A stretch of 64,000 nt of DNA from Stromatinia cepivora (lineage: Eukaryota; Ascomycota; Leotiomycetes; Helotiales; Sclerotiniaceae): positions 310,001 to 374,000 of the forward strand of contig RCTD01000027.1 in NCBI GenBank assembly GCA_014898415.1. The letters are read 5' to 3'. The notes under the pieces were generated by a model. That model searched no databases and had not been told where the DNA came from. It saw nothing but the letters and a program-made list of their open reading frames with translations. Below, piece by piece: positions 51,684 through 53,379 of the stretch; position 1 is the first letter of the stretch, and the number at the start of each line of letters is the position of its first letter. A program made the position numbers and the translations under genes.

Positions 51684-51833
51684 GGCCGGGTGGTGTAGTT
51701 GGTTATGTGAGTAAACACTTCTCTTCAACTTATCCCTCCTCTACAGTCACTAATATCTTCATAGCACGTATGCTTCACAACATCTCAGTATGTCAAACGC
51801 ATAAGGTCCTGGGTTCGAACCCCAGTTTGGTCA
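51684..51833 (+). tRNA. tRNA-Val(CAC) with two inserts: D-stem and anticodon-loop introns
   Basis: Three mature segments (51684-51706, 51765-51779, 51798-51833) join to a 74-nt cloverleaf. Acceptor GGCCGGG pairs with TTTGGTC (four G-U pairs). T8, A14, G18G19 and A21 are in place. The D-stem is GTG/CAC; the anticodon stem TATGC/GCATA has loop T-T-CAC-A-C. The T-arm is CTGGG-TTCGAAC-CCCAG and the discriminator is A. An 18-nt insert (51780-51797) sits at the canonical position after nucleotide 37. A second, 58-nt insert (51707-51764) splits the D-stem between positions 22 and 23; it begins GTGAGT, has CACTAATA near its end and finishes ATAG, like a spliceosomal intron. A-box TGGTGTAGTTGG and B-box GGTTCGAAC are intact, and a T5 run follows 6 nt downstream. 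Whether it is processed is unknown. Confidence 0.7.
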
Positions 51834-51839
51834 TGTACA

Positions 51840-51844
51840 TTTTT
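51840..51844 (+). terminator. Pol III T-run terminator of the tRNA-Val gene
   Basis: Five consecutive T residues begin 7 nt after the tRNA discriminator base. This matches the usual RNA polymerase III stop signal. Confidence 0.6.
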
Positions 51845-53379
51845 GCCTTTTCAGCGGATCTTTTTTTGGGGGGAGGAGGTGATATATTTTTGAGTATTAG
51901 ATACCTACCTAGTATCTCTTATACCGCGTTCGACTTTTCAGGCTGAGTCTTCGGCGTGTAATATATACACAATAATCAAAGACTCTTCCACTCACCATTG
52001 CACCAATGAGGGGTATCAGCATTTCGTTATTTATTTCACGTGCCCTTCACAGTTATATCTTCTTAATACCAGATCGGACAAGATCCCTGGTTCGAGCCCG
52101 GGTTCAGTCAATCATTTTGTTACCCATGACGCTCTTTTTTGATGACGTCTACAATCCATATCTCGATAGCTTCATATCTAGATGCATTTGGAGGTCTGCA
52201 CTGTTCTCTTTTGATTGACCTCGTAATGATGGAAAGGGGATGTTTCTATTATGTAATAATATGTGCACGGTACATAACCTAAAATACTTGAAGCAACAAA
52301 TATAGAACGATAATCTACAATTGCAAGAGTCTATCATGCTAGAAGTTTCGCATCACCTGCTGTTTCAAAAGTTCATTTACCTTGAGAAATGCAAAGGATA
52401 TCTTTCAAGGCTGACGAGTATTATACCAGTCAATGTTCGAAGTTGAACATTCAACTATTTCATCTGAAGCATATATGGTGGTATCTATGTCGTTGTTGCA
52501 CAATATCTCATACTATATGCTCGTTTTATAAATACAAATTGTTTTGGAAGAAGATGTCAGAGCAAGTATACTGATTGTCAAATATCGATTGAGTTCTTGA
52601 GTCTTCCCTGCCACCTCCACGAGTGTGGTCTTACGATCTGAGTGTAATCAAAATTCCAACATCCCATTTCATAGACATGAATGGCTTCTGATACCAGCTT
52701 ATCAGATTTCTCGTTGGCAGCTTCTCGCCGTCCGAAGATATGCAAAACCTTTCTATGCTGAAAAATAACACAAAGTCGTCTATAGCACGCACATTTTTGG
52801 TGATAGATTTATTAATGATTCTACACTCAAGTACTATTCCAAGTCTCGTCAGTAAAGAGTCTATTTGGGTAAGTGTAACGCAATATCACCAGTATCGGGA
52901 TCTATGTTAAACACTTGGCCTCTGTCCGGGAAGGCACGTAAGAGGTCAGTAAACTTCCGTCGGAAGAATCATTACTTATCCCTTTGAATTAAATCTCACC
53001 AGTAGTAGCGGAGATGTTTGACTTGATTGCATCTAGGCTGATTATAAGCTTCATTCCTCATGGAATGTCTTGTAGATCACGAACATCTTTTCTATGTTTT
53101 CTTGGTTGTCGCGCTCCAAGAATGCTTGGATATGCACATTGCATATTTCGCGAAAATCTTGAGTATGCACGCGCTTGAGGGAGGGGGGCCAGGCCAAAAT
53201 CTCTGCTTATAACCGGACCCATCTACTAGACTATGGTGATTTTCTATACTTGGCAAGATACGGTGCTTCGTGTGCTTTTTTCTTCTTCGTTGCGCTCTCT
53301 CATTTGCGCCTCTCTTTTCATAGTCGGTCATTCATTAAACTGTCCTCTCTTGGACTGTCACAATCTTTTAACGTTTAGA
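51845..53379. other. Intergenic region (outside the second tRNA-like locus)
   Basis: Apart from the tRNA-like locus, I see no gene here. The final 200 nt are probably the promoter and leader of the modular secreted protein gene. Confidence 0.55.
51941..52110 (+). tRNA. tRNA-like locus with a clear 3' half and unresolved 5' half
   Basis: A good T-arm is present (CCTGG-TTCGAGC-CCGGG, 52086-52102, containing a B-box), then TTCAGTC-A. A T4 run follows at 52115-52118. GGCTGAG at 51941-51947 can pair with TTCAGTC and is the only such match nearby, but no A-box or D-arm follows it. ATCGGACAAGATC before the T-arm could be an anticodon-stem 3' strand (TCGGA) or a long variable arm (GATC...GATC). It may be a second tRNA with large inserts, or a decayed tRNA. 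The 5' limit is uncertain. Confidence 0.35.

Follow-up and report, generated by a model that had tools for sequence, protein, structure and literature searches.

Two tRNA-Val genes of Stromatinia cepivora with a D-arm intron of apparently spliceosomal type

Splicing of tRNA, by an endonuclease and a ligase, and splicing of mRNA, by the spliceosome acting on RNA polymerase II (Pol II) transcripts, are treated as separate pathways. The locus described here raises the question of whether the two can meet in a single gene. In a 64,000-nucleotide stretch of Stromatinia cepivora DNA (the window), a tRNA-Val(CAC) gene is interrupted within its D-arm by an insert with the signals of a pre-mRNA intron, and the matter to be decided is whether this insert is an intron, which machinery would remove it, and whether the gene that carries it yields a tRNA.

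The gene occupies positions 51684..51833 of the window, on the plus strand. Exon 1 (51684..51706) supplies the 5' strand of the acceptor stem, the 5' strand of the D-stem and the D-loop through position 22, ending ...GGTTAT, and contains an unbroken A box, TGGTGTAGTTGG (51691..51702). Between tRNA positions 22 and 23 lies the 58-nt insert (51707..51764), with the location and sequence given in an earlier note on this DNA; it begins with the 5' site GTGAGT (51707-51712), carries the branch block CACTAATA at 51748-51755, and ends ATAG, with the 3' AG at 51763-51764. Exon 2 (51765..51779) consists of the 3' strand of the D-stem, CAC, and the anticodon arm through A37, with anticodon CAC. It is followed by a canonical 18-nt anticodon-loop intron after position 37 (51780..51797), called by ARAGORN, and then by exon 3 (51798..51833), likewise delimited by ARAGORN, with the 3' strand of the anticodon stem, the T arm and the 3' strand of the acceptor stem. 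The B box region, GGTTCGAACC, is at 51812..51821. A T5 run at 51840..51844, presumed to be the terminator for RNA polymerase III (Pol III), comes next, followed by T4 and T7 runs; intact boxes and a T5 terminator, both claimed previously, are in place.

Recognition of the tRNA depends on the D-arm insert. When the 58-nt stretch is omitted, ARAGORN reports tRNA-Val(cac) and places an intron of 18 nt behind position 37; when the 18-nt stretch is omitted as well, it reports a 74-nt Val(cac). Applied to the excised gene with the D-arm insert retained, with or without the 18-nt stretch, it returns no tRNA, and applied to the window, whether with its defaults or with the intron limit set at 200 nt, it returns none. 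A single loose setting, permitting overlays and pseudogenes, places a tRNA-Glu(ctc) with a 66-nt intron over the stretch, a call that we take to be spurious. The gene scores 15.7 bits with the Rfam tRNA model, whose cut-off is 29.

Paralogues elsewhere in the genome (55.67 Mb in 48 contigs) show the D-arm in its joined form. A pattern search with the 5' half of the Val tRNA matched 21 places, fewer than the 124 matched by its reversed control. Ten of these were exact, and all ten are tRNA-Val genes: the window gene, a second interrupted gene described below, and eight Val-AAC genes. The other 11, each with one mismatch, were judged by eye and include no tRNA. Exon 1 of the window gene differs from the eight Val-AAC genes, whose D-arm is unbroken, only at position 7, and all eight have the joined sequence GGTTATCACG (read as TGGTGTAGTTGGTTATCACG) without interruption. 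The exon junction is thereby fixed, leaving GT/AG as the sole possible register, and the proposal that removal of the insert joins GGTTAT to CAC and restores the D-stem agrees with both the ARAGORN call and these genes. Six of the eight Val-AAC genes have an anticodon intron after position 37 and two do not. In one (L077), altered letters in the anticodon stem weaken that stem. In all eight (L077-L084) the T-loop is ATCGTGC where TTCGANN is usual, as if the T54/A58 pair had been swapped.

A DNA search of the genome with the 150-nt window gene returned two places, the gene itself and a locus on another contig, C34:370524-370674(-), 71% identical to it along the full length. This second gene is a tRNA-Val(UAC); its D-stem is interrupted at the same nucleotide, by an insert of 54 nt, and a further insert of 23 nt follows position 37. 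ARAGORN calls it Val(tac) when the D-arm insert is omitted; its call of Leu, made with both inserts retained, is regarded as spurious. The D-arm insert reads GTGAGT...CACTAATA...ATAG in the window gene and GTAAGT...CACTAATA...ATAG in the C34 gene. Compared with each other, these two sequences, the sole carriers of the D-arm insert, are identical at five of six bases of the 5' site (GTRAGT), at nine of nine bases of TCACTAATA and at seven of the last eight bases, while their interiors have a similarity score of 0.5 against a null mean of -0.3, a value matched or exceeded in 38% of 2000 shuffles. Kept signals around a diverged interior are the pattern expected of introns selected for splicing only. 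The intron would most simply have been gained in a common ancestor of the CAC gene and the C34 UAC gene, and kept thereafter. RNAalifold has, for both genes, the CACTA of the branch site paired to the tRNA bases U8-G12; such pairing could mask the branch site, or could be a second cause of its conservation.

The signals themselves are those of U2-type introns. Both inserts have GT...AG ends that conform to the fungal 5' consensus GTRNGT (GTGAGT...TAG and GTAAGT...TAG), and both have, as CACTAATA, a CTRAY branch sequence shortly before the 3' AG, with 11 and 12 nucleotides after the presumed branch A. The earlier note had likened the insert to the introns of neighboring pre-mRNAs, and the neighboring coronin gene bears out the comparison. 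Its reading frame requires three introns, of 49, 48 and 48 nt, with 5' sites GTATGT, GTAGGT and GTAAGT, branch-like sequences CTAAT, CTAAT and TTAAC, and TAG at the 3' end. A fourth candidate there (51 nt; GTAAGT, CTGAC, CAG) can be read through in frame and gains no support from it. By their sequences, the D-arm inserts, at 58 and 54 nt, fit the type of these mRNA introns. Intron type and protein families in this DNA point to a filamentous ascomycete.

That such a combination of signals should be an accident, or the insert an assembly error, is extremely improbable. A single assembly was examined, but the inserts are found on two contigs, at the same site, and with different sequences. The motif GTRAGT-N25-60-CTAAY-N3-18-YAG occurs three times on the plus strand of the 64-kb window and not at all on the minus strand, with 0.8 per strand expected from 20 simulated sequences; with CACTAATA as the branch sequence, it occurs once in the 64 kb and in none of the 20 simulations. 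The paralogue with an insert at the same site, together with the simulation count, led us to reject chance resemblance. Pattern scans for relatives covered a set of genome contigs, in which none of five stretches had a B-box motif within 220 nt, and, in three scans, viral contigs, which gave 0, 84 and 14 stretches, with a B-box motif at none of the 98 loci from the last two.

A true intron might still fall to the tRNA endonuclease and ligase, as in red algae, the GT-AG ends being coincidental. PMC4090602 lists 22/23 among the ectopic positions of archaeal introns and describes D-arm introns in algal and nucleomorph tRNA genes. According to the same source, the non-canonical tRNA introns of Cyanidioschyzon merolae go with bulge-helix-bulge (BHB) motifs and the endonuclease, and those of nucleomorphs are of unknown mechanism. 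According to PMC4090602 and PMC3978253, the ectopic introns of C. merolae and of nucleomorphs resemble the present case in being D-arm introns of eukaryotic tRNAs, sometimes with further introns in the gene. They differ, however: in the nucleomorph of Guillardia theta the introns span 3-24 nt and are of unknown mechanism, whereas those described here are 54-58 nt long with GT-branch-AG signals, and C. merolae introns are tied to BHB motifs, whereas the fungal D-arm inserts have no strict BHB. In the single register possible at the junctions, the central helix of a strict BHB forms just one of four pairs in the CAC gene and two of four in the UAC gene, and on this count a BHB-type intron, in its strict form, was rejected. 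The conserved parts of the insert, moreover, are its spliceosomal signals. PMC4090602 describes the eukaryotic enzyme as measuring from the tRNA body, its Sen54 subunit in contact with the D-arm, and it is the D-arm that the insert splits. Excision of the D-arm insert by the endonuclease is accordingly judged unlikely, and the earlier description of the insert as spliceosomal-looking is supported by the C34 paralogue, with its conserved signals at the same nucleotide, by the uninterrupted Val-AAC genes and the likeness to coronin introns, and by the lack of fit to a strict BHB. Canonical fungal tRNA introns lie after position 37, and both interrupted genes have one, of 18 and 23 nt; the D-arm insert differs from these in lying at 22/23 and in having pre-mRNA splice signals.

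A spliceosomal-type intron could nevertheless sit in genes that are silent or whose transcripts go unprocessed, the interrupted genes being pseudogenes or sources of non-decoding RNAs while the AAC genes and a gene on contig C30 serve the Val codons. Short D-arm insertions in eukaryotic tRNAs have mostly been taken as marks of pseudogenes (PMC4090602), the C30 gene reads as a Val-UAC gene without a D-arm insert, and an apparent decayed Val-like copy adjoins the window gene. The stems of the two interrupted genes speak otherwise. Each of the 20 cloverleaf stem pairs is formed in the one gene as in the other, as the earlier note's claim of a full cloverleaf after both removals would have it, and five pairs are changed on both sides. 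Of the stem pairs that differ between the CAC and UAC genes, four are in the anticodon stem, one is in the T stem and two are in the acceptor stem; the anticodon and T stems show double-sided changes. In a control for this covariation, which rests on two sequences, 17 of 500 shuffles reach the observed values, and registers slid out of place pair in 27.5-44.7% of cells. The boxes are intact, a T5 run follows each gene, and splice signals are kept in two diverged copies; broken stems or boxes and decaying splice signals, by which tRNA pseudogenes are known, are not seen in either. Genome searches found no other CAC gene.

The suspicion of decay had come from four G-U pairs in the acceptor stem of the window gene. 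The four pairs are real, but the UAC and AAC paralogues share two of these (2-71 and 5-68), which for that reason are not marks of decay. What decay at this locus looks like may be seen about 105 bp downstream of the CAC gene, where alignment detects a probable decayed tandem copy (51939..52110, plus strand). In it the T arm and the anticodon arm, the latter with CAC, can be recognized, but the A box and the splice sites cannot. Its local alignment score against the gene, 23.5, is only moderately above that of 500 shuffles (mean 12.8, maximum 24.0). Its acceptor-like strands, GGCTGAG and TTCAGTC, are still able to pair. This relic is probably an example of function loss at the locus. For the interrupted gene itself, decay was rejected on the kept stem pairs and the shared G-U pairs; silence of both interrupted genes we regard as improbable.

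How much would depend on the two genes is a matter of the Val tRNA set as a whole. A T-arm pattern search of the genome found 12 places (control, 0): the same ten Val genes exactly, and two places with one mismatch, of which one is an Ala(CGC) gene and the other the gene at C30:457096-457209 (L142/L143). The latter has a D-arm without an insert. ARAGORN calls it Ser(tga) unspliced, but Val(tac) when given a joined form from which a 41-nt stretch after position 37 is left out. As Val(tac) it has one mismatch, 27-43, and the D-loop TAGTGG, and it is a probable Val(UAC) gene of another lineage. The Val genes found by these genome searches thus number eight AAC, one CAC (interrupted) and probably two UAC (one interrupted). 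Searches of the genome for further CAC genes returned either the window gene alone or three places, none of them a tRNA. Two other pattern searches came back empty, the Val-AAC T loop ATCGTG having escaped both patterns, and the one that bears on CAC genes is a weak test for that reason; a pattern that proved too loose matched 199 places against 173 for its reversed control; one of these, read among the matches listed (L102), is not a tRNA. Several uninterrupted Val-CAC genes, which the earlier note had named as evidence against its reading, were therefore looked for and not found in these searches; what they turned up was the one C30 reading as Val-UAC.

GUG lies outside the decoding range of inosine-34 in AAC tRNAs and is left to the CAC and UAC tRNAs. 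In five window ORFs, GUG accounts for 37 of 230 Val codons. The idea that the D-arm intron sits in every GUG-reading tRNA was dropped on account of the C30 gene, which reads as Val(UAC) without the insert. For the same reason the interrupted genes may be dispensable: the decoding of GUG need not depend on them, nor hence on the D-arm intron.

In the wider tRNA set, 63 of 3161 candidates for the tRNA family RF00005 were scored, giving 62 matches, and ARAGORN reported 61 tRNAs in 60 fetched stretches, in which the presence of D-arm inserts was judged by its own calls only. One 150-nt tRNA match missed by ARAGORN in the fetched set (L071, C25:688697-688846, minus strand) carries a long insert (77-81 nt), which interrupts the anticodon region and leaves the D-arm whole; its ARAGORN reading, His(gtg), is doubtful. 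For a tRNA-like sequence at C12:624580-624714 (L032), ARAGORN proposes the anticodon CTA, which would decode UAG, together with an intron of 64 nt whose placement is uncertain. Another, on the minus strand of C23 near 526767 (L149), reads TCCGAATTAGTGCAGTGG... and has a long intron and the anticodon TCA or TTC.

If the interrupted genes are working genes, the question becomes which polymerase makes the RNA from which the D-arm intron would be removed. The spliceosome may act on a Pol II transcript, either read-through or dedicated, with the usual end-processing enzymes making the tRNA ends. Spliceosomes do normally work on Pol II RNA, and the D-arm intron of the C34 UAC gene contains an internal T5 run that might end Pol III transcription early, as does one other of the 71 tRNAs examined, a Met gene. 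In general, the first downstream run of at least four Ts is T4 or T5 in 57 of 71 tRNA genes examined. Against a Pol II origin, which we consider unlikely, each interrupted gene retains its A box, its B box and a T5 run, and U6, which Pol III ordinarily transcribes, also seems to carry an intron of the same kind. The box starts are 121 nt (CAC) and 122 nt (UAC) apart; in the two Val-AAC genes for which it was measured, this spacing is 45 nt and 63 nt.

A genome search for the U6 snRNA family (5334 candidates, 47 scored) gave one match, the only U6 gene detected (L152, on the minus strand of C6 near 2125355-2125540). A GCC-UUCG-GGC stem-loop, which we take to be the U6 5' end from its expected shape, precedes the conserved TGGTCAATTTG by 53 nt, which read GTAAGT...ACTAAC...CATAG. 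The folding energies of the joined and unjoined 5' ends, -3.6 and -2.4 kcal/mol, are little apart. The Rfam U6 alignment covers the whole model at 83.9 bits without an intron, although the 5' stem is then a weak one, formed by A-U pairs only, with one mismatch. An mRNA-type intron appears, then, to be present in the only detected U6 gene. Such introns occur in the U6 snRNA genes of fission yeast and other fungi. If the U6 intron is real, the spliceosome of this fungus already acts on an essential transcript of the Pol III type. The tRNA-Val genes resemble these in having a GT-branch-AG intron in a short gene, here presumed to be transcribed by Pol III; they differ in that the host is a tRNA, which must fold and undergo a second splicing pathway.

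A further precedent for spliceosomal removal from RNA not made by Pol II is a 57-bp spliceosomal intron of lichen rDNA, which yeast splices out of Pol I rRNA when the intron is placed there (PMC8527467). As in that report, the present intron would be a spliceosomal one in a non-mRNA gene; the lichen-fungus introns involve rRNA and Pol I, and ours tRNA. In the open-access literature, no report of a spliceosomal intron in a tRNA was found in titles and the starts of abstracts, among the matches listed. The string 'spliceosom' does not occur in PMC4090602 or PMC8450103, and PMC6726248 and PMC5709842 gave nothing decisive on the question.

On the reading that we favor, both interrupted genes probably yield functional tRNAs, the spliceosome removing the D-arm intron and the tRNA endonuclease the anticodon intron. 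Pol III would transcribe the tRNA-Val(CAC) gene by way of the A and B boxes, which are intact; the spliceosome would excise the 58-nt D-arm intron, using its GU-AG ends and the branch site CACUAAUA; and the tRNA endonuclease and ligase would excise the 18-nt intron after position 37. We infer that this last step probably follows removal of the D-arm intron, since the endonuclease apparently locates its cuts by reference to the folded body of the tRNA. It seems rather likely, if less assuredly so, that two splicing machineries work in series on a Pol III pre-tRNA, and that the only detected supply of tRNA-Val(CAC) depends on the spliceosome.

A conserved spliceosomal intron in tRNA genes would, if true, break the division between tRNA and mRNA splicing. 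It would mean that the spliceosome is able to act on a short and highly structured pre-tRNA, and it would provide a case of intron gain in tRNA, with tRNA supply linked to the capacity of the spliceosome. It would also mean that tRNA finders overlook such genes, as the Rfam model and ARAGORN did here, and that more may hide in fungal genomes. The two tRNA-Val genes suggest that the mRNA splicing machinery may help to make some of the tRNAs of this filamentous fungus.
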